Below the pieces are notes generated by a model that had not been told where the DNA came from, searched no databases, and saw only the letters and a list, made by a program, of their open reading frames with translations. The position numbers were made by a program, and so were the translations under genes. This document shows positions 6,466 to 54,491 of a DNA stretch of 64,000 nt, piece after piece. Source of the stretch: Morchella semilibera (Eukaryota > Ascomycota > Pezizomycetes > Pezizales > Morchellaceae). How positions within the stretch are numbered: the stretch's first letter is position 1; each line of letters begins with the position of its first letter. The DNA is taken from the NCBI GenBank assembly GCA_009192285.1, contig CM018604.1, positions 3,888,580 through 3,952,579 of the forward strand, written 5' to 3'.

Positions 6466-7076
6466 ATGCCATCGTCCGAGATGACCCGTATTCAAGGCAG
6501 AGCCTACTCTCCCACCCGTATGCTAACCCATAAATAAATCTACTCCAGACCAAAGCATACTAATAAATGCAAGTTCTAGAGATGGTCGGATTCCTCGCTG
6601 CCGTGAGCCCCTACATGTGGCCCCGCCGCCGCGCCACCGCCATCACCACTGTCAAGCTCTCGCCAGCCCAGCTGAGCTCTGGCACAGAGTTCGCAGCAGC
6701 GGATAATCTCCGTTCGAGCCCCACCATCACGCCCCCGATCTTCACAAATAGGCCCCAGTGGCTCGTCCTGACGGCTAATCCTTCTCAACCCTCCCCAACG
6801 CGCTCTCCCGTTGTCTCGACGTCGGCTACTCCAGTCTGTATCAGCGCTTCACACCCGATGGTTCACCCAGCCACCACCGATATTGAGAGCCAAGTTCGCT
6901 CACCCCGACTCAGCAGCCGAAAGTATTCGTTTGATAGTCTGGTGGGCGTTTTAAAGGAGCGTATCTCCGCCCATGAAGAAGAAGAACCGTTGCCCTGCGA
7001 GAGGTGTGGGGGAAGTGTCGTACCTGGGAGTGTTTGCCAGGGAGTTCGCGCCAATAGGTGGTTGCGTCTTAACTGA
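6466..7076 (+). CDS. Two-exon orphan protein with C-terminal CxxC knuckle (184 aa)
   Basis: Exon 1 is 6466-6517 and starts at ATG in ATCATCATGCC after a CA-rich leader. A 56-nt phase-1 intron follows (6518-6573, donor GTATGC, branch CATACTAAT, acceptor TGCAAG). Exon 2 is 6574-7076. The spliced product is 184 residues; a start at 6567 without exon 1 is the alternative. Most of the protein is Ser/Thr/Pro-rich and probably disordered, with a basic run (WPRRRATA). A short helix (DSLVGVLKERISAHEEEE) precedes a terminal Cys motif, C159-E-R-C162-G-x9-C172, followed by a basic tail. That motif resembles half of a zinc ribbon and recurs in other proteins of this window. Nucleic-acid or protein binding is inference only. 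Confidence 0.66.
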
Positions 7077-8101
7077 AACCTCGGAGCAGGCGCTCACCTA
7101 TGTTCATGAGTATGCGATATGCTGCGGTGGCGTCATTGCAGGATGTCGGAGTATTATTGCCTTTGGAGAAGGGGTGGAAGCTACCAGATGGATCCTGCAG
7201 GAGTTCACTCGTTTATCTCACTGGATCAATAAAAAATAAACTATACTTTCTTTTAAACTTGGTTTTCTTTCTTTGGTTCGATCAGGGCTGATGGTCTTCT
7301 GCTTCGGAGGTACAGTGTAGTTCCTTATCGTATAGGGAATTGCGCTCTCCTCGTGCCTATAGCTTAGTAGGTCCTTTTCAACAGGCCATATTTACATACT
7401 CCACTACCAGGGTCCCTTAGCGTTACAAAGTTGGGTGGGGGTGTTACAGCCCTACACTACCTGGTGAAAAAGCTCCTTTACCATCGCTGACTATGGGACA
7501 GCCCGATCCCCTTTGTCCCTCCAGCATGCTCGGCCCAATCGGTAAAAGGCCTCATTGTACTGGCAAAGACCACAGAATGTAAATTCCCAAGAACCAGAAT
7601 TAAGACCAACCTCTAGAAATGAATGTGTATATAGATCGAGAGAGCGCTGTGAGACTTGCATGTGCCATTTGCGCTCTCTTGGGACAAAGGTCGTTTGCGC
7701 AGGATGGCCACCGGAACTAACTACTAGGAACACATCCACATGAGCCTAAGGGACGATGTCCAAAGATACGTAGTGAGATCATTTTGGCCCATACAATAAC
7801 ATGGGATTGGAAAATAGTATTAGTATAAAACCATCCGAGGTTGTTTAGAAGGCAGGAGGTTTGTCTATGGCACTGTATTAAATTCAATCGCGTTCATGAC
7901 TGAAAATGGAATCATGAAACTGGTGGGATTTACTATGAAGGAGTACCTTCTTCAACAGCAGTTTTAGGAAACCGCTGTTGATATAAACTTCCTAATTCTA
8001 GAACAGTTAACTATTGTCAGGACCACCCGCAAGCTATCTAGCTAAATACTGAAGCTGCTAGAACCTACCATTAACCCAAAAGCAAACACCAGAGCCAAAA
8101 T
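7077..8101. other. Intergenic region
   Basis: No gene is supported. A minus-strand frame at 7491-7739 (82 codons, GTG-led, with a stop directly upstream) has protein-like composition and could be a fragment, but it lacks a start codon and splice signals. The last 80 bp are the A/C-rich leader of the 8102 gene. Confidence 0.45.
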
Positions 8102-8473
8102 ATGTCTGCCCGATCCTCTAACTGCTCCGAACCTTCCTTCGAAAACCACATGCCACGCATCCAGCGTCTCCGTAGTAAGATGGAGGATCTGCGCTCAACC
8201 AGGAAAATTTGCGCAACGGAGCTGGCCATGTGGGGGCGTATGGTATATACTCCAGATAGTATCCGTGGGATAATCAAGGGCATTATTAAGAAGAATGTCA
8301 TTGTTGATCCCGAGGAGTGGGATAAATGTACTAGGAAGAAGGAGGAGCTGTTGAAGAATATTGATGATATTGATGAACAGCTAAGAAGGTTGCAGGAGGA
8401 GATGGACCCTTTGTTGCTGGGGTTGTGTTGCAAGAAAGGAACTGTTCGATTTGAAGATGAGGTCAAGGATTGA
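8102..8473 (+). CDS. Small coiled-coil orphan protein (123 aa)
   Basis: A single exon of 123 residues runs from ATG 8102 (AAAATATGTC) to TGA 8471-8473. The N-terminus is Ser-rich. Two helical segments follow: residues 17-45 (PRIQRLRSKMEDLRSTRK) and residues 75-105 (KKEELLKNIDDIDEQLRRLQ). The second has heptad-like leucine/isoleucine spacing, and a GIIKGIIKK stretch joins them. A Cys pair (LCCKK) sits near the end. No membrane segment or signal peptide. The size and paired-helix layout resemble the proteins at 2818 and 3673, but no extended motif is shared, so common descent is uncertain. Function unknown. Confidence 0.68.
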   Translation: MSARSSNCSEPSFENHMPRIQRLRSKMEDLRSTRKICATELAMWGRMVYTPDSIRGIIKGIIKKNVIVDPEEWDKCTRKKEELLKNIDDIDEQLRRLQEEMDPLLLGLCCKKGTVRFEDEVKD

Positions 8474-9129
8474 TAAGAGAGTTTTTTTGGGTTTTTTTTT
8501 TTGTTTACACCACTAATCGTATGTTTCTTTGGGGTTAGCGTATATGCGAGAAAATAAGTTATTATGTAGCTTGGCAGATAGAAAGAAAAATTCAAAACAA
8601 TTTGTCCCACATTTTTTTTTTCACGGATTTCTGGGCAAAGTCCGGACTAAAACCACAGCAAATCCCATCCTTCCCTTCCTTCTCCTCCCTACTCCCATCA
8701 ACCATCCCAACTAAATATTCTCCAAAACCTTTGTCCCCACACCGCTCTCCTTCTTCTTCTTCGCAAACCAACCACAAAATAATCATCCCACACCTTTTAG
8801 TCAGATCCTCAATTTTTTCTTGAGAGTAGTTCACCCGAGTTTCAAGGAACTCCAAATCACCAGAACAACTTTTATTCGACCATCCACTTTCTCATCCTAT
8901 TCGTCACCCTCAATCCCCAGTGAAATAATCATTGTAAGAACTCGACCATCATTCAGTTCCTTATCCCTCGAACCGGTACCCCCCCCCCCCCCGCATCCCG
9001 CAAACCCTCTCTCCACCATACAAGCAACAAGCTTTCTAACGCAAGGACCCTGTTTGTTTTAGCCGGCAACTATCCACCCCTTCCAATCAGTCGAGCAACT
9101 TGAAATTATCCACACCTTGCCTAATTCGA
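8474..9129 (+). promoter_or_regulatory. Pyrimidine-rich upstream region of the 9230 gene
   Basis: After the 3' flank of the 8102 gene, the stretch 8640-9060 is strongly C/T-rich on the plus strand and includes a C14 run (8979-8992). Pyrimidine-rich tracts before the start are typical of ascomycete promoters and leaders. Several frames are open only because purines are scarce, and I do not call them genes. Confidence 0.4.
8979..8992 (+). repeat. C14 homopolymer
   Basis: An uninterrupted run of 14 C residues, preceded by GGTA, lies inside the pyrimidine-rich upstream region of the 9230 gene. Confidence 0.9.
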
Positions 9130-9195
9130 GTAAGTAGATTGTAGAATCCTAGTAGTGTATGAGTTAGCACTAACAAAATGTACATCTACAACTAG
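9130..9195 (+). other. Probable 5'-leader intron of the 9230 gene
   Basis: Donor GTAAGT (9130-9135), branch GCACTAAC and acceptor AACTAG (ending 9195) outline a 66-nt intron that ends 34 bases before the ATG at 9230. The signals are near-consensus. No coding exon is visible upstream. Confidence 0.48.
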
Positions 9196-9229
9196 ATCTT
9201 CGTTTCCCATTCGAAACAAACTATCAACG

Positions 9230-10132
9230 ATGGAGACTCCACCACATTCCCAAGCTGGCATGGACAGCCCTTCTCCCCAAAGAGAGTGGAGCAACAGCCC
9301 CCGCATCGAGTTCTTAGAAAGAATGAACGCCACACGCGAAGAAAACCAAACCTCAACCTCTACCCTTGCATCAAGTGCGGGTGGTCCGCTTTCTCCATCT
9401 CCCTCTGAGGAGGACACCTCCCCGACTTGCAAACCTACCAACACACCACGAGCCCCACCCACAACACTGCCAAGAGAGCAAGTATCGGGACGTAGACTCC
9501 GTTCTCTCTCCCCTCGTCTTAACAGCCGTCAGGCGAGGTACGGCTCCGCACCAAGAATCCGAAAGAATACCACAAGATCTACAATAACTGCCCCCCTTCA
9601 CACTACAAAGAAAACCGGTATTCAGCGGAAGGACACAAAAACCAGATCAACCCCCAATCAAACCGCAACAACCAAGGCTCGGAAGGTCAAAGCAGCAGTG
9701 GCCCTCCTTGCAGAAAATCACCATGGATCCTCTGTCCAGAAGGTTAATGAAGCCAAAGCTCTGCTTGATGCAAAGGCTCGCGAGGTCATTCTCCAAAAAA
9801 TCAACATTATCTACGAACGACGTGACTTCCTTCGCCATTCACTACTCTCCTTCCGCAGGCTTCAGACTGAGCCTATAAGACAGTACTACGCTTACCTGGC
9901 ATCTCAAGAGGAAGGCCCCCTGAGAGGTGCTGAGAATCTTACACACCACCTGGCGTATATCAAGCATCAGGGCAGATTGACCGCTGTCCCGTTTGCCCAC
10001 TATCACAGACTGATGGGGCAGGAAGAAATAACTGACCTTGGCGGCAGTCTTGAGGCCCTCCTCAGGCAGGTTTACAATCCAGATGAAACCGCAGAGAGGA
10101 TGAGAAATTGGTACGGGTCGGTGACCTACTAG
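9230..10132 (+). CDS. Basic, partly disordered orphan protein (300 aa)
   Basis: The ATG at 9230 (CAACGATGGAG) opens 300 codons. The frame is open further upstream, but a likely leader intron lies there. Residues 1-150 are Ser/Thr/Pro/Arg-rich, with repeated basic patches (GRRLRSLSPRLNSRQ, TKKTGIQRKDTKTR) that would suit nuclear location or nucleic-acid contact. Residues 155-300 look folded and helical: an Ala/Lys helix (KVKAAVALLAENH), then KAREVILQKINIIYERRDFL, then a histidine/tyrosine-containing region and a C-terminal helix before the final SVTY. There is no known domain, signal peptide or membrane segment. Codon use is balanced and gene-like. Function unknown. Confidence 0.68.
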   Translation: METPPHSQAGMDSPSPQREWSNSPRIEFLERMNATREENQTSTSTLASSAGGPLSPSPSEEDTSPTCKPTNTPRAPPTTLPREQVSGRRLRSLSPRLNSRQARYGSAPRIRKNTTRSTITAPLHTTKKTGIQRKDTKTRSTPNQTATTKARKVKAAVALLAENHHGSSVQKVNEAKALLDAKAREVILQKINIIYERRDFLRHSLLSFRRLQTEPIRQYYAYLASQEEGPLRGAENLTHHLAYIKHQGRLTAVPFAHYHRLMGQEEITDLGGSLEALLRQVYNPDETAERMRNWYGSVTY

Positions 10133-12282
10133 AAAAGGTGGAGAGTGATTAGAAGAAGAGTTATAATTACGAAGAAGAGATCTCTAAGTAATATACACCC
10201 CCGCTCAAACGATCCAAGTCCCTGCAAGGAGGGATGGCAGGTATGGGGTGCGGGGATTGGGGGTGGGGTAGAATAAAGGGCGGGGTCTTTAGTAACTTAG
10301 TGGAAATTTTCCAGCAGAGGGCTGCACGGAGAGTACCGGTGATAGTTTGGAGGACTTTGAGGCAGCAGATAGTGTTAAACGGAATTTACATTTTTTTTAC
10401 TTGGTCTTTCATTGTCTTACGAATTTTCTTTCTTTAACCATCTAAATCACCCGAGTAGAACAGGTCTTCGACTAGAACAATGAATTGGATATATGTCAGA
10501 TAATTACCATTTCTTGATTTGACGATATTACCTCTACCAATTCCGCTGCTCCAAGCAACCGAAAGCAGAACCATCAAACTTTGGCGGAAGCAGTAACTAA
10601 CCCCATGACACTGAAGGAGGATATGGCCTGACTGAACCCACACAGAGTACACGAGAGTCCAATTAAGTGCACCAGCACGGCCCCCCAATGAGGGTTCGAT
10701 GGAAGAATAAAGATAATGGGACCGGTATTACTTTGGTAAGGAAGGCCCGGATTGAAGAAAGGGAGTTGTGTAGGAGAGGAGGGGGCCTTTTTTCCAAGTG
10801 TTTTCGCATCGACTGGGAAGACAGAAACCACCCCGCTAGAGATACCAACGCATGAAGGATCCCTCTACCGGGAGACGGCGAGCCAGTTCCGCGGTTAAAT
10901 TTATTACCTACTACCCCCCTAGATTCAATGGTTTACGCAGGAAATAAGAGAGGTTTGCAGCCAGGCCCTTTTCTAGGTGCCTCCGTGTAGGCGGTGCAAC
11001 GCGGACTTTAAAAGCATAATATTAGAGTAGGAAAGATGCTCTCCGGTTGGGAGGGTTTTTGCTTTAATCCGCCTTTTAATTTTCGATCCCGGCTTAAACC
11101 TTGTACATAGTACCGTGAGTGAGGATATCTCGCGAGGACAAAAGACTTAGATGCGCTACTCGCCCAATGCTTTCTAAATTTCTGTTGAATTTGTCTAGGC
11201 GAACCTCTTCTGAAATACATACATTTTTTCTACCGTGGGTACGCTAGCCCACCCACCCGTGGATAGCCGCAGGAGCACACTGGCCTCGCGGATGTAGAGT
11301 AGATCCACTGTCACAAGGCTATCGTACCTGGCGCCATGCTGCAGAAATTGCCCAGAGGCCACATCGACTATGTTTGTTTGCGATTAACACCACCACCACC
11401 ACCACTACAATGACCATGGCACCCCCCGTGGGCAGTACATTGCAGACAGGTAATGCCCTTTCGAAACTCCGCTATAATTAAAACGATATCACACTCATCG
11501 CATCCTGCATCGCACCTTTTCTTTGTCATTTAGTTTTCCACCATTGGAGCAAAGTAGCTCTCGGGGCAAATGGGTCGAAAGAATTTTTTCCCACAGGCAT
11601 CCACGGCTGGAACGTTCTTTCCACAGCCGGCAACGGTCCCCACCATGTTAGGTCCTAGAGTGAGCACTATCGAGTACCTACACCGGCGACATTTGATGCT
11701 AAGTCTTTTCTAATGGGAGTGGTAGTATTGTTCGGCAAGCATTCTACAGGCGGCACGGAGGCACACGCCATGAGGGGTGCCGCACGATATGCTTCAGGCA
11801 TAACGGTGGGACGTGCCATGGCAATACTTTGTGAGATGGGATGGGGGGGTATTGTTCCAAACCCTGGTGAAGGTTTGTAATCCTGTGATGTTACTGAAGA
11901 TACGTACGGCTCCATGCTAAGGTGGTCTAAAGGGAATTATCTTTCTACACTGCTCGAAATCTCGGTACCCCACCGCACGCACCCCCCACAGCGCACTGAT
12001 TTTGGCGCCAGCAACAATACCTTCTGGTCGGCGACCCTCCTTATCATAGTCTCCCTTTTCGACATTGCTGAGGTGCCGTCGGAATCGCGATGGCCGTCGC
12101 CATCAATGGCACTTCGGTCCCATGGAGTTACATGCGAGCGACTACCATGGAATTCAGTCGCGGTCCCTACCTTGCGTAAAGCCTCCGCGGTTGGGGTAGA
12201 TACAGATATAAAACAATCAATCTAGTAATCCAGATTATTGGTCTGCTACGCACAGCCTCTTATATTGGACCCTACTAACAAT
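10133..12282. other. Noncoding or decayed DNA
   Basis: I see no supportable gene. A GT-rich 3' flank is followed by mixed sequence. A minus-strand frame at 11667-11915 (82 codons from ATG) has plausible composition but no other support. A (CAC)6 run lies near 11391. Confidence 0.45.
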
Positions 12283-12933
12283 TTAGTAGGACATCATCTT
12301 CTGGCGGAGGGGGGGACCATCGCCGAACCCGTTCTCTGGCGTCCATGTGGGGCCTTCGGTGTTTCTTTCCCTAATATCCCACTGAGTCGAACTCACACGA
12401 AAGCCTCGGGCTGTGTTCCTACCTACCATCTCTATCCACTGGCACTCGGGACTGATTTCTCCGGCTGCATCCTTGATGACATCAGACAAAAGACAAAGGG
12501 GTTTCGCTGACGTTCGGGATTTTATGTAGAAACCTTGCGTTTCTACCGACGTTGCCTACTCATGCGTGAGCTTATTGCAGGTGATGTTGTCATTGTAGAA
12601 CAAAACAATGACTCTCTTACCGCTCCTGGACTTATGCCTGGTGGGTGTGTGTGTGGGGGGAGGGGCGTGGTAGTGCCGACACAATATTTGCTGATGGCCT
12701 GTCCAGTGCTTGTCAACAGACTCCCACAAAGAAAGGGCCACCTGTCGAAAAAGCTCCCGCATATGCAATACTACGTTAGCCGATAGCCAGGGTTGCCGTC
12801 GGCAGACAGCGAGGTATCCTGTGAACTGCGGGGGGCGAGTGAAGATGCAGGTACCTACATACAAGGTTTGCAGCAAAGCATTCACAATGGGATTGTCCCA
12901 TTAGGCTCCTAAGCACTTCAGCGCTATCACCAT
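12283..12933 (-). pseudogene. Decayed gene: one frame with two in-frame stops
   Basis: From ATG 12933-12931 a single minus-strand frame runs 217 codons to TAA at 12283. It is interrupted only by TAA (12903-12901) and TAG (12558-12556). All three parts look like real protein: PMVIALKCLGA, then QPWLSANVVLHMRELFRQ, then DAAGEISPECQWIEMVGRN near the end. A C-to-T change in a CAA or CAG codon would account for each stop. No family is recognised; a transposon protein is as likely as a host gene. Introns spanning the stops cannot be excluded, but the flanking sequence reads as coding. Confidence 0.4.
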
Positions 12934-15372: not shown

Positions 15373-16365
15373 ATGAACAATAATAATCCGCCTGCCTCAA
15401 GCTCCACCGCCTTGAAAACTGTTGAGGATGTGCCAATGTCCTCTGCAGAGCGTCATACTCTGTCATTCATCGATGCCAAGATCCGTGACTTGCACCATGT
15501 AGCTGGTCTGTTCAAGAGGTCCAAAATGTAAACATTACACTTTTATTGACAAAGTTATAGTTCGTACTGGCATTCCCTATCGTGAGGACCTATCTGCAGC
15601 AAAAAGATTCCTGAAGAAATGGCGATCTAGGGCTGTTAATATTCCCCAGCGTGAGTCTTCCGTTGCTTTACCCCATGCACCCATCACACTAACATCGACC
15701 TTCCCCCTGTGCAGAAACCAAACACACCAAACCCCAAAGGATCCCGGTACACACTCGTAGCGTGAACAACAGGGGACGACGTGGTACCCACGCGCAGGGC
15801 GACCATGAACACTATGCGGAGGAGCATCAGGACCCTACTCGCTCCTGTGTCGTGGGGGGAAACGGAGATGTTCCCGGATCTCCAGGTAAGTTCGCACCGC
15901 TTGCAGCCCAGTCTATGTGAAGCGTATTAACATTGAAGTTCCATCTAGCCAACCACGACCCACAGGTATATACGGTTCCAAGACTGCCGTTCACCGCCGG
16001 GGACGAGAACGGCGTTCTCCAACCTTCAAGGCAAGGTGGTCCGTGTGGGATTCTCAGCGAGAACGACGGGTTATGGAACAACCAAGGTATGTATTGTATC
16101 ACTAATAGAATCGCTGGAAAGCCTGCTGACAGTTCTATTAGGGAACACGTCAATCGCCGGGACCTCCGAAGTCGACCCTGGCTTCCGTATTCCGGCGGTC
16201 CACATGAGCGACGAGCGTCGCCCAAATAGGCCCAGGAGGAGGTCCCGCCTCGGTGAGGTCGGAGAGGCCTGGATGTGCGACTACTGCGGGCACAGGTTTG
16301 ACAGCAATCGTGCCAATCCGGATTGGCATTGCTGTTGGCCCATGTGGGGGACGGGGTCTCATTGA
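15373..16365 (+). CDS. Five-exon orphan protein with C-terminal Cys knuckle (251 aa)
   Basis: Predicted exons are 15373-15505, 15561-15650, 15715-15885, 15949-16086 and 16142-16365. Introns are 55, 64, 63 and 55 nt and all phase 1. Introns 2-4 have strong signals: GTGAGT with ACTAAC, GTAAGT with ATTAAC, and GTATGT with GCTGAC. Intron 1 is weaker (donor GTCTGT, acceptor TATAG). The joined frame is 251 residues with no stop. The N-terminus is Asn/Ser-rich, then a helical part (DLSAAKRFLKKWRSR), a long linker rich in Gly, Arg and Pro with an RPRRRSR patch, and a terminal module W-M-C223-D-Y-C226-G-H followed by C241-C242-W-P. The module resembles a partial zinc ribbon. It lies alone between decayed tracts. 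Function unknown. Confidence 0.68.
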
Positions 16366-27782: not shown

Positions 27783-28730
27783 CACTCGCTCAAGCAAGTA
27801 CTTGTAATCGGAGTTTATTGCAATCTTTTCAGATGGTGAGATAGGAATGGGGGGCTATATATTTCTTCATCTCCCTTACAGCAGTTTGCATATAGATACT
27901 TACTAGCGGCCGTCCAGGGAAAATGAATTCATAAGGTATCACTCGGCCAGTTTTGCGATCAGTTTTTGTTTATAATGTGTTGATACTTCATATCTACATG
28001 ACAAAACCTTTCCCCCCACTTCTCTGGAGGCAGGGCAAATCTTCCTCATCATCGTTTGGGGGCGATAGGGGGCTTATAAGACTGCTTTCAGCGGCGAGGG
28101 AGTGTACTGCCATTGTGCCAATACCTCCCAACGTATGTATTGCGGACTCTGGGTGCAAGCCGATATTGAGACAACGCCTTGTAGGCCAGCATAACTTAAA
28201 ACGATTACTGGGGTATTGGTGTATCACATGGTCTCATCATTATATACAACGTTCAATAGCGGCCGATCTTCAATCTCCACAGAAAATGCAGGTTATTCCG
28301 CCACTTCCCGTTTACGGCCGGTCTACCCAGAATATATTAGACTTGACTCTCTCTACTACCCAACGTACGTGAGGCAGCGTGCCGGCGAGGGAGTCTGCCA
28401 CCTATATTAAATACTTGCCAGGGAGTCCAGATCAGGAGCAAAGCTTCTACTAACATCTGTCTGGAGCATCACTAGCAGTAATTTAAGCCATCTTGTAAGG
28501 TTCACCAATTGAGTATTCCTTATTGAAGGCGGTAGGGAAAGACACCGGGTTAATCATAGCTGGGACATCACGGTGGGATTAGAAGAATGTAGTCGTCAAA
28601 AAACCGATCAAGACAGCAAGTGAAGGAGATTTGTAATAATCCCCACTAAGAAAAAGGAACCCCTTTGCCCACTCCCTCGCCTTCGCCTTATCAAGCTGAG
28701 GCCAGGCTTCAGCTTCGTCCAAATCTAAAA
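27783..28730. other. Intergenic DNA
   Basis: No gene is supported. A plus-strand frame at 27953-28372 is open for 139 codons but lacks supporting signals. Confidence 0.42.
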
Positions 28731-29132
28731 CTAAGCCTTACAATGTGGCTCATCGTCCTCCAGATTCGCTCCACACCCCTCACACATCCTCGGAACTGGC
28801 TTCCCATCCTTCACCGGCGGGATGATCAATGTCCCATCCTTATTCTTCTCCACCGTCGCAATGAAGTCGCGCCAGTCAGCTGTGATGACACGGCGATGGC
28901 GTTGACGGCGGAGGGTGGCCCCAGGGGCAAATAGCGGGGGTTTGCTTTCGGTAGAGGCGCCGCCAGGGACGCCGTTGATAACTTCGGGGCCTGTGGGGTC
29001 TTCGTTGAAGGTGACCGAGAGGGCTAGGAATGATTCTAAGGCCTGGAGCTCGGCAGCAGTGGGACTGGTTACGGTAGGCGGGGCATTGGTAGAGTCGGAG
29101 GTGACGGAAGTGAGTGACCTTGGAGGAGACAT
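28731..29132 (-). CDS. Orphan protein ending in a CxxCG...HC knuckle (133 aa)
   Basis: I take ATG 29132-29130 as the start. The frame is open about 43 codons further upstream but has no ATG there, so an additional 5' exon is possible. The product is 133 residues: a Ser/Thr/Pro-rich N-terminus, a short helix (AAELQALESFLALSV), a PLFAPGATLRRQRHRR segment, then DWRDFIATVEKNKDGT and the terminal motif C117-E-G-C120-G-x9-H130-C131. The knuckle matches the ends of the 6466 and 15373 products in form. The FxPGATL segment recurs in the divergent neighbour at 29638. GC-rich codons support coding. Zinc binding is inferred from Cys/His spacing only. Confidence 0.58.
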   Translation of the reverse strand: MSPPRSLTSVTSDSTNAPPTVTSPTAAELQALESFLALSVTFNEDPTGPEVINGVPGGASTESKPPLFAPGATLRRQRHRRVITADWRDFIATVEKNKDGTLIIPPVKDGKPVPRMCEGCGANLEDDEPHCKA

Positions 29133-38975: not shown

Positions 38976-41309
38976 TTAGTTACTCCAAGATTTCAGACAT
39001 TCCAATGCCTCCAAAGAATCAGTTCCAAGTCGGTTCCTCATAGTAGACAATGTTAATTTCGCGCCAGAAAACAGCCTCTCTGGCTCAGAAGACATAGCAG
39101 GGATTGACAAGATATCAATTGCCATTTTGGAAAGGGTAGGGTATTGGCTTCGCACTCTAGCCTCCATCCACCATAATCTACTATTAGATACACCTAACTC
39201 CGGAATTGATAAAGAATATTGATCAAGCTCATCAGAATCTGCTGTCCCTAACCTCATATCCAGCCGACACCATGCATCAAACCCTGTACCCCCAAGCGCC
39301 GAGCTTGAATTGCCAATCATATTATGAACTCCACGATACCTACATTCCCAAAATTGTCTCAATAGGGCACGTGCTTGCAGGACTTCACCGGGGCTCCACC
39401 TGTCCTCAAAGTATTTCCATTTCCAAACCGGATTAAGTACTACTGCGGCGACATAAGCAGGTGATTGACGCAGGATTGTAATATATTTATCCAATTTCAC
39501 TTTTCCTGTTTCCATCATACTAATAAGCAGCGGTTCAGTTGTGTTTGTGAGTGATGTAAGGTAATGTTGACGGAGGTAGTCAAGGCAAGGTAACACTTGA
39601 CTAAGGCAAGAATTCCGTCCTTCTGTTGCTAAGGTGGCGGTTTCAAAAGGCTCCAAGAATTGGTGAATATCTTTTAACACAGCCCAGTCTGATGTAGTAA
39701 GGCGGTCACCCTCCAGTGAATGAGAGTAGGCATATAAATCCATTGCCTCATGCATATTGGGACGAAGAACACTACTCAATACTTTGTACCAAGAGTTCCA
39801 TCTCGTCTCATTATCACGGTAGGGCATGAGTCCCCCACTCCTCCTTTTGAATTCCGCCGCCCTCTGAGGACTGTGTCGTATGTGAACGATGAGATTATGA
39901 ATCTTTCCCAATGGCCCTGCCTTGCGCCATTGATTCAAAGTATCTGTGGAAACATCCTCCAAACAGAACTGTTCCGGTTTCAAAGCATGATCTGATCCAA
40001 ACAAGTAGGCTTGAACTGATAGGTTGATAATATGGCCAGTGCACCGTAATCTTCTCTCATCATGGCTCCAACCCTCCATCCCTATCTCACGTAGGTGTAT
40101 ACCAAGAAAACGCCACAAAGAGTCATTGTTGGTTGCATTGTCCATCATTCCATAACCAAGCTTTGACGTCACCCCATATGAGTCCAACAGCTCACATAGT
40201 GGTAACGAGAGATTTTCCCCTGAATGTGATCCATCAACAACCTTTAGACCTAACACACGGTTGCAGAGTTGACCTCCCTCATTGGTAAAGTGCCCGATTA
40301 CCCCCAACAAGCAATAATTATTAGGACTTTGCCACAAATCCAATGTTACATGGATTTCTGATTCAGATCCATGTAGTTCGTTCCGTATAATTTCTCTTTG
40401 AACCTTAAAGGATTGTATCACCCAGGATTGCACTGTACTGGGTGACATAGGAAGCAAAGACATGATATCAGGCCTAATATATTGAGTCCAAGCTCGAAAC
40501 TCAGGACTAGTAACAAAGCTCAGGGGAAGGCTGCGTTTTGCTATCATCTGAACCAATAAATCACTAATGACTACAGGGTCTGGTTGACTGCCTGATGAAG
40601 TGTGGGTGACGTCATCTGCTTGTTGGTGTAATTGTCTTTGCCGGACTCCTACTTCAGCCGCACGCTTCATTGCATGCTGGATAGATATGTTGGTTTGTTG
40701 TAATCTCTGTTGCTTGCGAGATATAGGTTCAATAATGTTGTGGGCTTTTTGCAGATGTTGAGCTCTAGCTGTTGATCCGGTTGATATCAGATATCGTTGT
40801 GGCTTTGTTCGATTACTGCAATGGGAACACTCCCACATACTAGAACCATGTCAGATTTTAATTGCTTTTAACGTTGGTTGTTAGTAGATTATGGCTACAG
40901 ACCTCTCCCCGTCTATCACTATCTTCCTATCATGTACTACATCTCCCTCATTCCATGTCCAGGATCTGGTTTCCATAGTCTTCCTTTTTCTTTGATTGGG
41001 TAGTAATACAGCGGATGGCAACTCAGGCGGCGCAGCTGAATCAATCATTGGTGTCGTGAAATCTGGTATTGATGTTTCGGGTTGCTGGGGCATGTCTAAT
41101 ACAGTATCTGTAGGTGCCGTGGGTGGTGGTGCATATAGCGAATGGTCATCACTGTCTGAAGGCACTAGGGAGGTAAGGGCCGATGCAGATGATTGAGTTA
41201 ATGTTGTATGAGCTGTCAATAGATTGGGCACGGTAGAGGATAAATGAATAGCACTGTACATAGTGCTAGGTGCCAGTGAGCCATGATCTGATGACTGGTC
41301 CGAAGTCAT
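38976..41309 (-). CDS. hAT-family transposase with BED zinc finger (756 aa)
   Basis: This enzyme cuts and inserts its own element. Exon 1 is 41309-40903, starting at ATG (CAAATGAC). A 63-nt phase-2 intron (40902-40840) has donor GTCTGT, branch CTACTAAC and acceptor TTCTAG. Exon 2 is 40839-38976. The product is 756 residues. Residues 1-110 are Ser/Thr/Pro-rich. A BED finger spans about 116-170: SWTWNEG, then C140-x2-C143 and H164-x4-H169, split by the intron. The catalytic core includes VTLDLWQSPNN, DNATNND and RCTGHIINL. The C-terminal dimerisation region has IPAMSSEPERLFSGAKL and LSTMRNRL. No stop or frameshift is present, so the enzyme could be functional. Length and domain order match fungal hAT transposases. 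Confidence 0.94.
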
Positions 41310-43800: not shown

Positions 43801-44066
43801 ACTTCACGCGTTATTAGAACGATGAGAGAATGTAAGTTTAAAGTTTGTAAAGTAGCATCAGATTACGACGACTCTTACACCCATAGCAGTTCTAACAACA
43901 AGGCCAAGAATGCAGAAGATTCTCTAGTTACTACCCTTCCCATCACTCTCCTTCCTCCCTTTACGCTTGCGGCCGCCATTCCGCTTTCTTCTCTCGGCTC
44001 TCTCCCTATTTGTTTCCTTCCTTCTTCTAGGATACCTCTCGCGGGCACTGTGAAATACCCTGTTAG

Positions 44067-44627
44067 CTACATTGACCGTTTGGGAAGAGCGACTACATAC
44101 TGAACAGGTTTATCACCGAAGCCTGTGTTACTAGACTTGGGAGCTGAGTTGCTGTTTTGGGCTTCATCACTTTCAACGCGCTCTTCGACAACAGGGTGGT
44201 GGGTGTCCAGCCCCCCTAGAAGCAACGGCGTGCGAACACGCTCATAAATTGATCCCCAGGGGTACCCATCGCGAGGGTACCCATCCGCATCGTACCCAGG
44301 AACGCCCATGTTCCAGCAGAAGAATGTGACATTAGAGGCGCAGAATGAACTGCACGAGAAGCGCCAGGTCACAAGAGTGGTTATAGCATGGTCGATAGGG
44401 ATGATGGCATCGGTTAACTGAAGTGCTTCGAGGTCCGGTAGGCTGATCTCGGGGGTTGGCAAGATTTTAGGTGTTTCAGGGCATTGAGGATTATCTGGTG
44501 GCGGCGCATCTGATAGGACTCTGGCCCAGGACTTGACACCGTTGGTTTGGACCTTGTTCCTATTACCAGAAAGAATGGTTGTTGCCATAGCCTTCCTCAG
44601 GGGAAGATTGGTTGGCTCTGAGGCCAT
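44067..44627 (-). CDS. Orphan protein with a Trp/Cys cluster (186 aa)
   Basis: ATG 44627-44625 (GTTATGGCC) opens 186 codons to TGA at 44067. The N-terminus is polar and basic, then Pro-rich (PETPKILPTPEISLPDLEAL). A central cluster, W88-R-F-S-C92-S-S-F-C96-x7-C104-W, is followed by a Gly/Tyr/Asp/Pro turn region (GYDADGYPRDGYPWG) and an acidic Ser/Asn-rich tail. No signal peptide or membrane helix is convincing, although the Cys cluster is fairly hydrophobic. The W-x(n)-C-x(2-3)-C-x(n)-C-W pattern loosely recalls the end of the 15373 product. The start context is good. Function unknown. Confidence 0.62.
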   Translation of the reverse strand: MASEPTNLPLRKAMATTILSGNRNKVQTNGVKSWARVLSDAPPPDNPQCPETPKILPTPEISLPDLEALQLTDAIIPIDHAITTLVTWRFSCSSFCASNVTFFCWNMGVPGYDADGYPRDGYPWGSIYERVRTPLLLGGLDTHHPVVEERVESDEAQNSNSAPKSSNTGFGDKPVQYVVALPKRSM

Positions 44628-45555: not shown

Positions 45556-47103
45556 TCAAGGGGCAATAGGGTAGAGGATGAGGGAAACCCAGAGTAGAAG
45601 CAGAACCAGCGGAAACACTGAAGTGTTCTCGTGATAGTTGAAGGGTAAGCAGTTGTTGTCGGGAGGGTCGGTAATCTCTTTCATCACGTTATTACCTCCA
45701 GCGGGCTGCTGACCGGCCGAGCCATCGGAGACACATGGGCTCGAAATACACCCTCTATCTCTGTTGGCCGTAGCTGGAATTCCTTCCATATTCTGTAGCC
45801 GGGAGTAGGGTAACGTGGTTAGTAGTGCACACAACGAAACATCTATTAGGAATGGGGAATTATTTTATACCTGTAGTTCTCCGCTAGCCTTTACTCCTTT
45901 TACCACTTCAACCATTTGCGCCGAGGTTCCTGCATTCACTCCTCTACTCGCAGCACCCTTCGTTACAATACCATGCAGCCCATGGTGAATTGGTTCCTCC
46001 AATATAACACCGAGCATCTTCTTAGTGAGTGTATTGGTGACGGTTTCCCATCCGGTAAAGATATCCGCACCCACGCCCACAGTTGTCAAAACCAAAGTAG
46101 TTGGACCACCCCGATGAGCGAAGTGAGCGGGTGTTATTATTTCGGCCCAACGGGGACCCCTTTTGGCAGGGCATTTCTGCTCTAAAGCATTTGGGTTGAG
46201 CTGACGACCTTTTTCCTTGAGCAAGGGAGGCATTGGGCGTGGCTGGCTCCCCCCCTCGTCGAGAGCATCGTCAGCCCAGTTGAAGCCAGGAGTAGGCAGA
46301 ATATCTTGTCCGGCCGAGGTTCTATTGTCAATCGTATTGGAGCCTTGCCTCGTTTTGCCGCTCGTGGTATTACCTCCCTGGCAAGATCTTGGGTTGGTTG
46401 GGTCGGGGGTGGAGGGGGTATGGTCCGGTCCAAGTGGAGCATCGGCAGCATTAGCTGGTATGATCAAAGATCCTGTTCTGCAGGCGGCCTCTACCCCAGT
46501 CTGAGTAGTAGTCAAGGAGGTCTGGTTTTCATTTTTGGTAACTTGACGAGGATCTGAGTGATGTTCGAGTCTTGGAGTATTTGAGCTATTTCCGGTCTCA
46601 GTAGTAATAGCTGAAGACGGTTTGCTACCCCCACCGATGATATGGCTTGAGGTGGTTGATGTCTCCGCCTGGACAGAGATAGAAAAGGAGGTTTCGATCG
46701 AGGTAAACACAAGCCCCGTCCCGTTAGAACTGTGAACATTTCTGGTAGTGATAATCTCCACCTCGGTGTAGGTGGAAAGATATTGGGGCGGAAGCAAAAT
46801 CTCTGTGAGGTCGCCATCCGCGGGTGATACTGGCTTAATCTCAGGAGTTGGAGGTGGAAGCAACTGAATACTTGGTGTGCCGGTGACAATAACTGGGGGC
46901 TTGTAGTCGGTCTTGACTTGTTTTGGGGCTTTTCGGATGTTAGGGTCGCGCTCTTTCAATATATTGACGTGACCAGAAGACGGCAGGCTGGTGTTGCCGG
47001 ATCCGCTGCTGACGCATTTGAGCTCTCTGCTGGTGCCAGTAGCTCTGAATCCGGGAACAAACTCCTTGATTTGTTCCCATCGGTGGGTAGACTTCGTAGG
47101 CAT
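45556..47103 (-). CDS. Two-exon Ser/Thr/Pro-rich protein with C-terminal membrane anchor (489 aa)
   Basis: ATG 47103-47101 follows TTCTCCAGA. Exon 1 is 47103-45871. A 78-nt phase-0 intron (45870-45793) has donor GTATAA, branch CTACTAAC and acceptor GCTACAG. Exon 2 is 45792-45556. The product is 489 residues. There is no N-terminal signal peptide (MPTKSTHRWEQIKEF). Residues 60-330 are Ser/Thr/Pro/Gly-rich and probably disordered. A more ordered part contains RWAEIITPAHFAH and GWETVTNTLTKKMLG. Exon 2 adds two Cys motifs and ends with a hydrophobic helix (FPLVLLLLWVSLILYPIA) three residues from the C-terminus region. This layout suggests a tail-anchored protein; a GPI signal is less likely without a leader. 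Function unknown. Confidence 0.66.
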
Positions 47104-49575
47104 TCTGGAGAAAATGGATTATGAGCAGGAATAGGTTGTGAGAAATGGTTTTAAATACGGGATATCTTGAGACAATGTGGTGAGAATGGGACGGACCGTT
47201 AAGAGGTTTTATCAGGGGTTGGGAAATGTTTTAGCTATAGTCGGTATAGTATGGGTAAAGACCCCTCATTCATTCCAGAAGCAAACCGCACCACCGCATG
47301 ACTGACCTGCATACAATTAGGAGAACTGCAATGTGTATAGGTATATAGGTGCTGCCAGCGCGTCATGAATTATCACTCGGGGGACGCATGGTCGGCGTCC
47401 TTTGCGTGGGGGTGAAAGACTGATACATTATTCCCGGCCTCAGGATGGCCTGTATATATCGACGGATAATAGGATATGGACTGCTCAGAATAGGCAGTAC
47501 TATCGTCAAAAGGAGTGGATTAATTAATCCTATGATGATTATGCAAAGTGGACATCGTCTTTCCTTTTATAGTAATCAATAATAAAGAAAATATCTGTAT
47601 AAGGAAAAGCGATGTCTATAAAGAGAATACAAAGAGATAAAGAAATAGCTGATTTGTCAGCTTCTTTATATGGAGACATTCGAGCATATATGAGCGAGAT
47701 TTGGATCTGTCGTATGACGCTATACCTACCGTGCGCCCCATGATATAGTTAAAATAATTCTGCTAGAAGGGACTATATCCTTCCCGAAATCATGAAATAG
47801 TATGCATTCCTTCTTCCAACAAAAGATCCCAGAGCGAATGTCACGCCATTGCTATTACCACTGGCATGATCTGAGGTTTGCATATGATGATACATTCAAC
47901 TACGCTACGCAAAGCCCACACGGGGGTGCTAAAAAGGTTCCAAGATCGCGACTCCAGCCCAAGTGACCGGGTGGTCACGTGCAGAGCCCGTTCAACAATC
48001 TAGCATGGTAGCCGATCCTGGTAGGAACTGTACCAATGGTGGGTTAGGATAATTGAATGGCTTGAATATTCTCTTTGTCCTACATGTTTCTAAAGAAATA
48101 TTAGTCAACCGATGAATAGGATCAGTATTAATTCTACGTAGGCAGCGCGCATGACAGGAAACTAAATTTCTCAAATTGGCACGCTGATATTGAACAGATT
48201 GGAGGCCCTGCCAATCGGGCCGGGGTTACGCTTGAAACGCGGAGATCAAGTTAATTTTAATTCTCCCCTAGCCCCCTGTACGCACATACGTGCGTTCCAA
48301 GGCCAGCACATTACATTTGGATTTCCTAACCTGTCGTAAAGGAGGGGTCTATGATAATAAACTCTGGTACGGGAGATGATACCTCCAAAGTCTGCAACCT
48401 CACCTATTAGTGTCAAGGAAATACATCGACCGTAATCCTACATACAACTAACAAACTAAACAAAGAAAGCGTTGACGACGACCACTCAGGGTTAGGGTTT
48501 AAATCATCAGAGAGAGTAAATAGTCTTGAGGCTCCTGGTAGAGATTCTATGTTAGTATCGGGTGCGAGCTCGCGGGTGAAGGCGCAACATTGTTATTCAC
48601 AGTGGGGAGGGAGTATAGCACGACCGGGTGTGTGCTTTAGGTATACCGGTTAATTAAAATCACCTGTGCGGCTCATAGAAAAAGTGCTAACAACCGTGGA
48701 CCGATATTTGTGCAACTCCTTACCGGCTACGGTAAAGGTCATGTTTGGGGGAGAGCGCTCGCTCCCATAGTATATATCGGTCCGAGTAGGAACCACAAAG
48801 TTGTCTACCAATTCCGTATCGTTTCTTAATATAACATGATTGTTATTTGCAAAGAGGGAGGAATGAGAAGTTGATACTGTTGGGGGCCTTTAGTAATAGG
48901 GAAATATTTAAATGTGGGTGGTGGGAAAGAGGCAGGTATATTCATAGGCGAGTGATCAGCTGTGAAACTAGATAGTTGAGGGACATATCCACGAGGGCGC
49001 ATTACTTTACAGCTGCCAAGGGAAAGGCCGGAGTTGTAAGATAAGGGAGAGGCTCCCAACCCTGAACCATAAAGTATCGGTCATTCCTCACCTAGTCCCT
49101 CATCTCTCTAGTATTTCGGGGGTCTGGTGGACCAAAGGGGTTCAAGTTATGCGCCTGATCAGCAACAATTAATCGAGTCTGTGAATGATTATTTAGGTTA
49201 TGCCACAGGGCCATGTCTGTTCTACTCATATAGAATAGTTGGTTGTATGAAGTTCCCCCTGCAGCTATGAATATCAATTACCTCCCTACCGGGCGCAGGT
49301 GAACTACAGTATTGTTTATACACGTTTCAATGCCACAGACCTGAAGCAGCTATATATACATGTATTTATCAACTATGCATGGCGGACTTCGGGAACTGGG
49401 GCTCTGAGGCGGGGCACATACCCTGCTACTATATACTACAAGGGAGGTTAAAGAGAAGCGATTTACATTGCGTGGCTTTTAGGATACAGCCTAATACCAC
49501 CTAATTCCTGGCCCAGAAGCTCAGGTCTTCTGAAATGGTGGTCTTTTCTTTCACTTGTACTTAAATCCCTAAAGT
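47104..49575. other. AT-rich noncoding or relic DNA
   Basis: No gene is supported. A minus-strand frame at 48826-49059 has protein-like composition but no clear start. A two-unit telomere-like motif (AGGGTTAGGGTTT) lies at 48488-48500. Confidence 0.45.
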
Positions 49576-50068
49576 TCACCTTCGTCTGCAAACCACTCCA
49601 TAAGTCATACAGTCGTTGTACTCGCACCTTTGATATTTCATAACATTAAATCTTCGCATCTTCAGAATTTGAGCAGTCTCTGCATCGATGCACTGGCTTA
49701 TAGCCTCCAGACTAGACTCCCACAAGAGCAGCGTCACAAAATGTTTCACGAACGAGGAGCACAACTCGCAGGAATCTGAACCTTGCTCTACCACCTTGTA
49801 TGCCCTTATATACCATCCTCCTTTCATCCTCTTTTATATTCCTCCTTTGTGCAGCATGTCTCTTCATGCAATAACTCATCTTTCTCTCCACCATCTATTC
49901 TCTCCCGAAGGACCTATCGAGGAAGGTACTATCTGCCTTCTATCCTCTCCTCCAAAGGGACTCAATATTTTGCTTCTCTATTCTTTCTGGGCCTCCCACC
50001 TTTTTACCCTTCCCACTAATCTTACACCATATAAGGATCACAACGGCTGTCGTATCGAATGCCCTTGA
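49576..50068. other. Two weak opposed gene candidates
   Basis: On the minus strand, ATG 49827 opens 83 codons with a Cys-containing helix region (DSCELCSSFVKHF). On the plus strand, ATG 49856 opens 70 codons after a T/C-rich stretch with TATATA at about 49806. The starts are 28 bp apart and divergent. Neither has splice signals or known motifs. They could be real small genes sharing a promoter, or chance. Confidence 0.22.
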
Positions 50069-53009
50069 CTTGCACACCAATACTACCTCAAGAGGGGTGT
50101 GGTCTAGAGTTCAATCCACTACCAGCCCCTGTTAACCCGCTGCTGCAGACTGGAAAGCAGAGTGGGTAGAGCTCTCTCCTTGGTGGGTTGGGCTGCATTT
50201 AAGGTCCCCATAAACGGATCAAGCGCCCCAAAACACTTAAAAAGTAACTGCCAGGTAAATATTCTCTATATCTATAACAAGTCACCAAAAGTGCTCATTT
50301 GCCCTAAACACTCCTCTCGCTCGCGGAACGGCATAGACTGACAGTTCGTAGTTCCTGGGGTGAGGGGAATGGCTTCTCCCAAGTGAGAGGGTGGGCAAAT
50401 GATCGAAACCGGTATGCTGCCTGTTCCCCACTTCTGTTTTATATTAATTGCTAAGGCAAATACGCAACGTATTAGATGTATGGTTAGGGAAGTGGAGAAA
50501 GACGTCACGATAGACCTTTTCATCATTAGAGTAAGTTGAAACATCCGTTCCATTTATGTTTGTCGTGTTTGTTATGCTTGACCCTTAGACCAAATAACCC
50601 TCATTGAACTCCTTATTTTGATATTCTGTTACTAATATATTCTGAAAACGTAGGGTTCCGTCGGTACCGGTTCCGATATTCTGTGGCCCGGTGGCTTCCC
50701 GCAGGAAAGAGGTATGTACAGAGGCCTGGACACCTTTGAAAAACCAACGTTACTAATCCTTCGAATTCAAACACCAGTATCACGCCCATTAAGTACTCTT
50801 GATAGGGCAAGCACCCCACATCATCGTGTTCCCTCCTGGGCCAGACTTGGGTATATTCTATCTCCCAACTACCCGCAGGGAAAGCGAGCATGCTAGCTAA
50901 CTGATATTGGCTGTAGGATATCTCTGATGAGCTTAGGGGAAGGTAGAGCGATACAGAAAGAGGTATAAACTAAGATATCTCTATCTATCGTAGGAAGGTA
51001 ACTAATCTCTTTGAAACCAGAAGAGGTTATACACTGGGATAAGTTGGCGGTCTTCGTGGGGTTCACCCAGGCCCTGGACGAGCTTTCCTGTATTATGACA
51101 TGGAGTGAAAGCGCATTCCGAAGGGTCTATCCTTCTCCGGGCGGGGAAAGAACAGTATGTTAAATAGTTTGCTGGTCTTGAATGACAACCGCTAATGCAA
51201 GGCTAGGACAGAGAAGGAGACAAACCCCGCTCTTATCGAGAGCCGCGGTCTATCAATCTAGGCCACCGCCCTGATGGGCAGCTACAGTCACGGCTCCGCC
51301 TCCTGCAGCTTCCAGCTGCCTCAATATGTTCGCGCGTTAGGACTGCCCTCGCCCGCTATCAGACGTTCGCCCAAGTACCGTCATCTAGGCTAGAGGGCCT
51401 ATAGTTTCCCCGCTATCAGCAGCTCAGATTGAATACATCTGTGGTGCTGCTGGCCGACATACCAGTGGTAAGGCGATCCGGGGTATAGAAAGATTGTGTT
51501 CGGGTGACAGAGGCTGCTGGGGGTGGAACAAAAGCGCTTGTTCCCCCCTCCATAGGGGGTGCGTGCCTGGTGCAGATCTACAGGGGAATCTATGTATTTT
51601 TAACCATGCATATATGTTCGCGATCTCCACCCACATTTTCCAGGTCCCCCCTCCCAGCAATAGATAGTTCACATATTTCCTCTATACATAGGCCACTGCC
51701 TTCCCACCCAGCACTCATACTCTCTACACCGCTGCGCTGGCCAATATACTACTTTTTATGTAGAAAATTCATAACGCCCTTGGCCAACGCGTGAGCGCAA
51801 ACCGTCGAGTAAAATAGAGTACTATATATAATCGGTGTCTGTCGGAAGTATATTTTATAAGGCTCATACCTATTCGCAAACCTCTCTTGTACCTGGTCAC
51901 CATCCCCGATGTGCTTACTGCGGGAGTTGTGGCCCGGGCTTTGTGAAGAGCTTGAAGTGTTTCTAGCAGTGACAAGCGTGAGTCACGACGCATCACTCGG
52001 CGTTCTGTTCTTGGCATTTTTGGTTTCGATAGTGAAGAAAAGGGGGGTCCGTTGATTGGCTGACTAGGGGGAGGGGGAGGTACCTGCTATGGCCACAAAG
52101 AGCCACTACCATGTCTCGGCTCGAGAGAAACCATCGCTGCTGAAAAGAGGTCATGTTATCTCCTGGTTAAGAAGAGAGAGCTACAAGCCAGCTTGGCCAA
52201 CTACCCATAACCGGCATATTTTTGGACTTGTAACCCCAGCGGCCATCAAAACGTGTTCCCAGCAGCGGTTTCGGGTGTAAGGAACCCACCCACTTATGCT
52301 AAGCATCTGGAAAAAGGTCAACCCACACCACCGGAGGCCCAGGCCAAAAAACGGGAAGCCGGGGAGATAGCTCGATCAGAGAGCACGCACTGAATCTTTA
52401 TTGTTAGCCCCATCACACCTTTAAAAGATGTGCCTGCTTCCTGAAACCGATAGGGTCCCGTTCCACCGCTCTTATGGCAATGTAAAGGACCTGGGGGTAG
52501 GAAAACCTAGGCACGGGGGCGTGGAGCACCGCATTTCGGCTTGCGGGGGAGGGGTACAGTTCATTGTACGGGTAGTGCAGGAAAACTGCGGAGGCGCTGG
52601 CACTAAAGCTACCACAATATCTGAGTGGGGGCAGAAGCGGCCAAGGTCACTTTAGGGACAACGACGAAACCGGCCGAACAACGAGCAGGTATTTTTGGCG
52701 GACAGGGCACAGTCGCTCAGGGGGGTATCTAAGCCTGCAGCCTGTGCTATCGTCGTTGCCCCAGGTTTGTCGTTGCCCCCAAATTGACCTTATTAATGTA
52801 ATTACACCATTGTGGAAGAAGGGGCAATGGAATTTAAGAGAGTAAAGCTAAAGCTAAAAACACAAATTGGGCTATGGCGGCACACTATATACTCCCCATA
52901 GAGGGGGATCGTGCAACGAAGTGCGCACCATCTTTGGGGGTTGCTTCTACAGTAGCCGCGGGGACCTGCTAATATAATTTGAACTCAGTTCGTTCATAGT
53001 TGCAGCTAT
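50069..53009. other. Noncoding or relic DNA
   Basis: No gene is supported. At 51900-52017 on the minus strand an ATG-led segment reads like a first exon (SLLETLQALHKARATTPAVS) and ends near donor-like GTACAA or GTATGA sites, but no partner exon was found. A plus-strand frame from 52089 (63 codons) is equally uncertain. Confidence 0.4.
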
Positions 53010-53021
53010 CCCCCCCCCCCC
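53010..53021 (+). repeat. C12 homopolymer
   Basis: A run of 12 C residues about 580 bp before the ATG at 53604. Confidence 0.9.
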
Positions 53022-53603
53022 GGAGCCGGAAGTAGTATATGGGAGGAGCATTCTGGACGGGTGCTGTCGAGTCAACACCGGTGATATCCAGCCCCTATCG
53101 CGCTCTATCCGGTGCTATTTCTGCGTACACTTTTGCCATCTCTGGTGCATCTTCTCCCAGTTCGCCAGAGGTGGCTGCCAGCGGTGTAGGGGAACAGAGG
53201 CACACGAAGCTGGATACAAAGTCTTGAAACCCCAGCTCTATTCTAGATTCATCTAATAGTACTCCGGAACCGGCTATCCATTATTATACATCGGGGGACG
53301 ACTCGCGAGCGCGGTACATGATACCGAGTGATCTCTCATGATCGTTATCATCGAGCTCCCGTCCCTCCGTCTCAACGCTAACCGCTCCATGTTGGGTGAG
53401 AGACTTTGGGTCAATTTTGGCGCCGATTTTCCCCGGTCATATCCACGAAGCTCTGTCCCTGCCTGTCCCTCACTCCTAAAACGCGCGCTCCATTAACCCG
53501 CCCCCCAAAAGTGGAACTAAAGGTCCACACATCTATTGGACACTCACCTGCTCTCCCACACACCCTTTTCAAAACACCCAACAGCCCCTACAAGCAGTTA
53601 AAA
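53022..53603 (+). promoter_or_regulatory. Upstream region of the 53604 gene
   Basis: The last 200 bp are C/A/T-rich, as in fungal leaders. The coding frame stays open about 66 codons upstream of ATG 53604, but that part is leader-like in composition and its own start is not an ATG. Confidence 0.35.
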
Positions 53604-54491
53604 ATGGCCCCCCCAGTGCCCATCGTAATTCTCACCACCCCCTCACCAACCAGTAAGATTCACCCACTCTGTGTCCCGACCACAGCCTACCCCGTCTCCA
53701 CCGGTACCGAAGCCTGCAAATCCCCAATGAGTACCCCCTCACCAGGCACCTCCCCCGCCACTTCCACTACATCCGTCCTTCTAGCCCCTACTAGCGCTGC
53801 CTCCTCCGTCTCCGTACCGGCGGCGCCCCGGTTTGAGAACTACAGCACCTTCTGCTCCCACTGCCGCATAGTCCGTCGCGAGCATAAGTACTCTGCCCAG
53901 GACGCACCCGCATCTGCAGTAGCCCAAGAGGGCCCGGTCGACATCGGCCACTGGGATGATGACGGCCATACCACACCCTCCCACAAGCGTAATTGGGGCG
54001 GCCGCCTGCGTACTAGAATTAACGCTCGTAGTGAAAAGATCAAGGGGACAGGCGTGATGTCCAACGCCGTAGCGGCGCAGAGTTTTGCAACGTTGGAGGA
54101 AGTGGTCAGTATTTCTGGGTGCAAGGAGTGCGGAATTGATTCCAACGGAGGGAAAGAGCCTGAATTGCCCAAGTGTATCGATAATGGGGAACCGTGTGGT
54201 GCTGAGCATGAAGTGGTCAGCGGTATCATGCAGGAGGGGAATGAATCTACAGGGCTCATTCCTGTTTTCTTGGACCGCTCTACGGGCGCCGGGAATATTC
54301 ATGACGATAAATGTGCGGTTACTCTTATGCTGGATACAGGCGCGGGGGAGATCGAAGCCGAGGGACAGGGACTGAGCATCGACGAGCAGCGTAGGGTTGA
54401 GGAGTTGGAGGGCGAGAGTGAGATGGTGTTTTTCGGAAGGTTTGTGGAGGGGGAGGAGTGGGCGTTTGTGCCTCTGGCGGTTCAGGAGTAA
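53604..54491 (+). CDS. Orphan protein with three Cys pairs (295 aa)
   Basis: ATG 53604 (TAAAAATGGCC) opens 295 codons ending at TAA. Residues 1-75 are Pro/Ser/Thr/Ala-rich and disordered. A first Cys pair, F-C84-S-H-C87-R, is followed by a basic patch and KRNWGGRLRTRINARSEK. A second pair, G-C173-K-E-C176-G, and a third, K-C191-x6-C198-G, lie in the centre; the four central Cys could bind one metal ion. The C-terminal 90 residues are acidic (VEELEGESEMVFFGRFVEGE). No signal peptide or membrane segment. High GC at third positions supports coding. A role as a nuclear or regulatory protein would be inference. No family recognised. Confidence 0.67.
   Translation: MAPPVPIVILTTPSPTSKIHPLCVPTTAYPVSTGTEACKSPMSTPSPGTSPATSTTSVLLAPTSAASSVSVPAAPRFENYSTFCSHCRIVRREHKYSAQDAPASAVAQEGPVDIGHWDDDGHTTPSHKRNWGGRLRTRINARSEKIKGTGVMSNAVAAQSFATLEEVVSISGCKECGIDSNGGKEPELPKCIDNGEPCGAEHEVVSGIMQEGNESTGLIPVFLDRSTGAGNIHDDKCAVTLMLDTGAGEIEAEGQGLSIDEQRRVEELEGESEMVFFGRFVEGEEWAFVPLAVQE

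Follow-up and report, generated by a model that had tools for sequence, protein, structure and literature searches.

The question of how orphan proteins acquire a folded part is raised here by a stretch of 64,000 nucleotides from Morchella semilibera, referred to below as the window (contig CM018604.1, C2:3888580-3952579, within a genome of 56,756,124 bases on 23 contigs). Three predicted orphan genes of the window, here called p1, p2 and p3, encode products that end in a short cysteine knuckle of the form C-x2-C-G...C. In rubredoxins and zinc ribbons, the knuckle is usually such a CxxCG turn. The sequence regularity of these terminal knuckles is modest but real, a putative metal role is plausible, and the proteins are not detectably members of one recognizable gene family. 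If true, the recurrence in otherwise unrelated orphans of a C-terminal knuckle some 15 residues long would offer a directly testable route to a folded part, in which the metal gives instant local structure.

The gene models were made in this analysis. The window proteins and their terminal motifs are as follows:

6466-7076, + strand: p1, predicted orphan gene, 184 residues after removal of one intron
6518-6573, + strand: predicted intron of p1, 56 nt, GTATGC ... ACTAATAAATGCAAG; an acceptor at 6579 is possible too
6996-7037, + strand: p1 knuckle CERCGGSVVPGSVC, 12 residues ahead of the stop
28731-29132, - strand: p2, predicted orphan gene, 133 residues, single exon
28740-28784, - strand: p2 knuckle CEGCGANLEDDEPHC, 2 residues ahead of the stop; candidate ligands C117, C120, H130 and C131
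15373-16365, + strand: p3, predicted orphan gene, five-exon model; C-terminus WMCDYCGHRFDSNRANPDWHCCWPMWGTGSH, directly followed by the stop
16276-16335, + strand: p3 knuckle CDYCGHRFDSNRANPDWHCC, 9 residues ahead of the stop

These C-termini had been claimed in a preliminary description of the window; all three are present in the DNA, and its residue numbering for p1 and p2 agrees with ours. The cysteines of p1 lie at positions 106, 159, 162 and 172, the last three being C-terminal; with no histidine, its tail has three candidate ligands. The alternative p1 intron of 62 nt likewise preserves the reading frame, and the branch site looks good by eye. In p2, all three cysteines (117, 120 and 131) fall within the last 17 residues, with histidines at positions 79 and 130. 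The p3 tail contains C, C, H, C and C plus one further histidine as candidate ligands. Introns 2-4 of p3 (15651-15714, 15886-15948 and 16087-16141; 64, 63 and 55 nt) have canonical ends; since intron 1 is ambiguous, the cysteine numbering of p3 depends on the model. The Morchella crassipes genome paper gives a median intron length of 63 bp (PMC7014384).

The knuckle was defined as CxxCG-x5..18-C within the 45 C-terminal residues and was scored in stop-to-stop open reading frames (ORFs) of the window, of 100 kb on each side of it and of 40 kb elsewhere in the genome. The window and its flanks form a survey region of 264 kb (G000:C2:3788580-4052579), in which flank coordinates are given relative to the window, and ORFs of 100-129 residues with CxxC...C tails were counted as background. 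The motif is present in 5 of the 197 ORFs of at least 130 residues, as compared with 1 of the 1658 ORFs of 60-129 residues, which are mostly non-coding (Fisher p = 7e-5); when the long class is restricted to the 149 ORFs lying outside the window, two have the motif (p = 0.019). Because Cys, Gly and Trp are more frequent near the ends of long ORFs, suggesting read-through into non-coding DNA, the comparison was also matched for cysteine: among tails with at least three Cys, the motif occurs in 5 of 33 long and 1 of 313 short ORFs (p = 3e-5). A residue-shuffle test overstates the effect, because the composition of long ORFs shifts towards non-coding at their ends. In fifteen dinucleotide shuffles of this 264-kb region, motif ORFs averaged 0.07 (among an average of 32 ORFs with at least 130 residues), versus 5 of 165 observed. 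Thus, the recurring C-terminal knuckle proposed in the preliminary description is commoner than chance and is found again in flanking DNA that this description had not covered.

In the flanks, the following ORFs have cysteine-containing C-terminal or related motifs:

-35606..-34515, + strand: 363 residues, C-terminus KCSVCGRWREPGTKCCDVRVGCE, directly followed by the stop
-31422..-30460, + strand: 320 residues, C-terminus FCRRCFATGVGGTVCCGTVIPV, directly followed by the stop; F replaces the first G
69002..69634, - strand: 210 residues, WCATCGGGFNKGVGCCAVTV; third knuckle Cys 24 residues ahead of the stop
-63033..-62182, + strand: 283 residues, terminal complete pair CRFC...CNFC
-61008..-60487, + strand: 173 residues, FCSGCPMYRVPGSSSCEKH and VCDRC...CVLC
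-51049..-50291, + strand: 252 residues, orphan with a Cys-rich C-terminus TKCVNLKLPCEGSRWLCDCGHHDLRKKVRV of different spacing

Two of these long ORFs, at -35606 and 69002, have the exact spacing C-x2-C-G-x5-G-x2-C. Across the 264 kb, this spacing is found in four ORFs of at least 40 residues, namely p1, -35606, 69002 and a doubtful one at -2221. The last (70 residues, CPVCGGGVGGGIPC), which is the single positive among the 1658 short ORFs, was dropped, being short and having a non-coding score. Among the flank tails, those with CC offer at least four candidate ligands per chain.

Two further orphan ORFs of the window had been placed beside the knuckle proteins in the preliminary description:

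53604..54491, + strand: orphan ORF with internal CxxC pairs
44067..44627, - strand: orphan ORF with a C-x3-C...C cluster

The cysteine patterns ascribed to them are present, but neither is a terminal CxxCG knuckle, the CxxCG...C stretch of the 53604 product ending 104 residues ahead of its stop; hence, both stand outside the terminal-knuckle group. The region 53400-54548, where the window is richest in GC, holds two long frames that overlap on opposite strands (363 residues on the + strand and 255 on the - strand). Nor is a Ser/Thr/Pro linker distinctive, as had been suggested: the Ser/Thr/Pro fraction of the knuckle ORFs is 0.15-0.31, as compared with a mean of 0.23 (sd 0.06) for 39 surrounding long ORFs. 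As this content is ordinary for the region, a Ser/Thr/Pro body is no distinguishing mark of the knuckle ORFs.

In searches of their own genome at E ≤ 10 (0.001 for whole p2 and 10 for its tail), p1, p2, the p3 tail region, the 53604 product, -35606 and 69002 returned self-matches only; first-look candidates alone were scored, and weak relatives can escape such a search. The -31422 product gave four weak extra matches (E = 0.02-2.9), all to its acidic, probably disordered stretch. Leave-one-out profiles recovered one of five tails at E < 0.01, that of p1 (E = 0.005); -35606 was not significant (E = 6.9), and the remaining three were absent among the 14 best matches listed. The -2221 tail was included in a six-tail profile and left out of the five-tail leave-one-out, and p3 is in neither since its spacing is longer. 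A scan of viral contigs with p2 found no relatives. Among open-licence papers, as far as their titles and abstract openings tell, none deals with terminal knuckles of this kind in morels or truffles. The earlier proposal of a single class by descent is thus unsupported. A real but extremely diverged local family, duplicated in tandem and retaining only the C-terminal knuckle, is accordingly improbable in our judgment. Its six candidate members (p1, p2, p3, -35606, -31422 and 69002) do lie inside about 105 kb, and a consensus-tail query of the whole genome led to two places, both beside the window; among the long ORFs of the 40 kb elsewhere, none has the motif. However, this query was built from the very tails that it returned, both places being flank tails used in the consensus, and its first look scored two candidates only; moreover, the bodies have no relatives, the leave-one-out test fails for four of five tails at E < 0.01, and the 40-kb control is too small.

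Comparison with known zinc motifs gave a different nearest family for each tail, none of them passing its cut-off, which fits likeness at the level of the knuckle only. The p2 tail shares with Zn_ribbon_3 (PF13248) the C-x2-C-G of the first knuckle and one Cys further on, and the alignment spans positions 5-20 of the 26 in the model, but its 14.1 bits are below the cut-off of 27 bits; the other seven tails were not listed, and a genome search with this model gave three matches, none above the cut-off. The second CxxC of Zn_ribbon_3 is missing in the p1, p2 and p3 tails, which have one CxxC each, whereas the flank ORF at -63033 has CRFC...CNFC. The p3 tail weakly resembles the first knuckle of rubredoxin (E = 0.0026), yet it has one knuckle only, without the second CxxCG. 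It also aligns to model positions 15-37 of 45 in Zf_2nd_IFT121 (PF23145, E = 0.0088), although its score of 16.1 bits does not reach the cut-off of 25 bits, a longer piece scores 12.8 bits (E = 0.098), and the remainder of the IFT121 protein is absent from p3. With the gag-type CCHC zinc knuckle (PF00098), p1 shares C-x2-C...C and the spacing of the last Cys (C1, C4, C14); a gag copy in the same genome, at locus L031, reads CYYCGGVGHLVRDC. Unlike the CCHC pattern C-x2-C-x4-H-x4-C, six aligned tails and p3 have a residue other than His at position 9, and there is no Pfam match. Similarly, the resemblance of the p1 tail to C2H2 finger chains (E = 5e-4) covers their CxxCG half, but the HxxxH of the C2H2 finger (C-x2-C...H-x3-H) is lacking, again with no Pfam match. 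Overall, p1 had no Pfam match at E ≤ 1, no Pfam family exceeded its cut-off in the knuckle proteins, and NCBIfam, which was built for prokaryotes, gave nothing at E ≤ 0.1.

Seven tails were examined by a splice scan with simple rules, and codon scores were computed over the last 25 codons. By the rules of the scan, no intron removes the p2 or p3 tails; GTGAGG and GTAAGG donors are seen by eye near the p2 knuckle, but without a corresponding branch site and acceptor in the scan. The 69002 ORF has a candidate intron beyond its knuckle. As for codon usage, the 69002 tail lies slightly above background and the p2 tail clearly above it, p2 being the sole CxxCG knuckle tail of the window and flanks to do so. 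The codon score was taken as a hint only, because it separates real ORFs weakly, the hAT transposase of the window (see below) being itself at background. Directly downstream of p2, at 28582-28724 on the - strand, a frame reading LDEAEAWPQLDKAKAREWAKGFLFLSGDYYKSPSLAVLIGFLTTTFF has a coding-like score and is possibly a further exon or gene.

Collectively, we tentatively favor, at somewhat less than an even chance, the explanation that orphan proteins unrelated by any recognizable family have acquired or retained a minimal zinc knuckle that caps the C-terminus. The motif would comprise a rubredoxin-type turn, C-x2-C-G, followed 9-14 residues on by Cys, Cys-Cys, His-Cys or His-Cys-Cys, and each complete copy, once translated, would most likely bind one structural zinc via four side chains of one chain. 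On a protein with little other recognizable structure, and with a body that is presumably disordered, the knuckle may form a small folded cap that resists C-terminal trimming and offers a contact surface. The common layout would have arisen by repeated independent gain, or by divergence that left only the ligands, rather than within a recognizable gene family. The preliminary description had instead read each knuckle as half a site, perhaps completed by obligate dimerization or by a partner; the zinc hook and zinc clasp are the comparison systems for such sites. The three cysteines of the p1 tail, without His, fit this reading, as does the fact that the three window tails lack the second CxxC that an ordinary zinc ribbon has. 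In contrast, p2 (C, C, H, C) and p3 (C, C, H, C, C) exceed half a site, their HC and HCC runs adding ligands, so that the dimer or partner inference fails for two of the three window proteins. Since p2 offers four candidate ligands and p3 more than four, a single-chain site would be possible and dimerization would not be required; the flank CC tails behave likewise. On these candidate ligand counts, half-sites are excluded as a general rule, and we regard completion by dimers or partners as very improbable.

Several observations weigh against a single-chain zinc cap. The candidate ligands of p1 number only three, and p1 alone has a competing intron inside its knuckle (GTGTGG donor). In the tails of p1, -35606, -31422 and -63033, codon scores do not rise above background, and all gene models are predictions from DNA sequence. 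A comparison of p2 with PDB sequences found nothing better than E = 1, and AlphaFold models made without relatives had mean pLDDT values of 41.2 and 36.8, which are uninformative. The pattern was chosen after inspection of the window, so the enrichment is partly post hoc; independent replication amounts to the two flank ORFs; and the 40 kb elsewhere, with 0 of 32 ORFs of at least 130 residues positive, is too small a sample for judging whether the enrichment is local. Without the G requirement, the contrast weakens to 8 of 197 versus 23 of 1658 ORFs (p = 0.013), and outside the window to 5 of 149 (p = 0.07), short of the 5% level. Some of these points would be expected if the knuckles were coincidence combined with gene-model error, i.e., chance cysteines at the ends of open frames, partly in introns or 3' untranslated sequence, picked by eye from about 50 ORFs. 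The non-coding-like C, W and G content of long-ORF ends, the post hoc pattern, the background codon scores of most members, the competing p1 intron, the coding-like frame downstream of p2 and the mostly failing leave-one-out profiles all agree with it. Yet the Cys-matched excess, the positive codon score of the p2 tail and the scan result for the p2 and p3 tails are against it, and we consider coincidence unlikely, though a more serious competitor than a diverged local family or half-sites.

The orphan-rich setting may be more interesting than the knuckles themselves. The 264 kb contain 39 non-overlapping ORFs of at least 200 residues, and a Pfam scan of 35 of them (two from the start codon only; -94800, -70513, -20256 and 73426 left out) gave one match at E ≤ 0.01:

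38976-40838, - strand: hAT-type transposase ORF, 620 residues; Dimer_Tnp_hAT, E = 2.6e-18

Likewise, the window has 48 ORFs of 130 residues or more, and in a scan of 33 of them, a few from the start codon, the hAT ORF was the only match at E ≤ 0.01, the isolated p3 tail excepted. In the distant 40 kb, by comparison, 9 of 10 ORFs chosen from the 21 of at least 150 residues match Pfam at E ≤ 0.01, and 6 of the 10 are above the curated cut-off, 3 of these coming from a retroelement. When transposon ORFs are excluded, the cut-off is passed by 0 of 34 ORFs here versus 3 of 7 in the distant DNA (p = 0.003), a control of four places only. Conserved genes split into short exons may escape such an ORF-based scan. 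The ORFs are real as a group, as 40 of at least 200 residues are present versus 1-2 in each of eight shuffles. According to the Morchella crassipes genome paper, 92.5% of 11,565 genes had Nr hits (PMC7014384); therefore, orphan here means the lack of a known domain and not absence from other morels. Another pezizomycete, Pyronema confluens, has very many orphan genes, more than 20% of which are upregulated in sexual development, and the available text of that report does not mention a terminal zinc motif in them (PMC3778014).

It is conceivable, though rather unlikely, that the stretch is an orphan-gene island of at least 264 kb in which unrelated new or very fast-evolving proteins converge on a single-zinc cap, C-x2-C-G-x5-G-x2-[C/H]-C, that would stabilize their ends. 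The orphan-rich stretch also lends itself to research on gene birth, or on runaway divergence, in a fungus that is edible and economically important. Two causes of the orphan zone were considered and rejected. A mating-type locus is not indicated, as the single MAT-alpha and ten HMG-box matches in the genome (E ≤ 0.01) all lie off the contig of the window, C2. Repeat-induced point mutation is not indicated either, as the zone resembles the four distant loci in its dinucleotide indices.

Two minor observations concern other parts of the genome. Locus L031 (G000:C3:1000001-1010000), the source of the gag copy above, contains retrotransposon pieces, including a reverse transcriptase, a chromodomain match and the gag CCHC knuckle. 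In addition, the contig pairs C9/C10 and C12/C13 gave matches of equal score at near-identical coordinates (C9:140681/C10:140730, C12:852049/C13:852027 and C12:379654/C13:379690), as if they were near-duplicate scaffolds.

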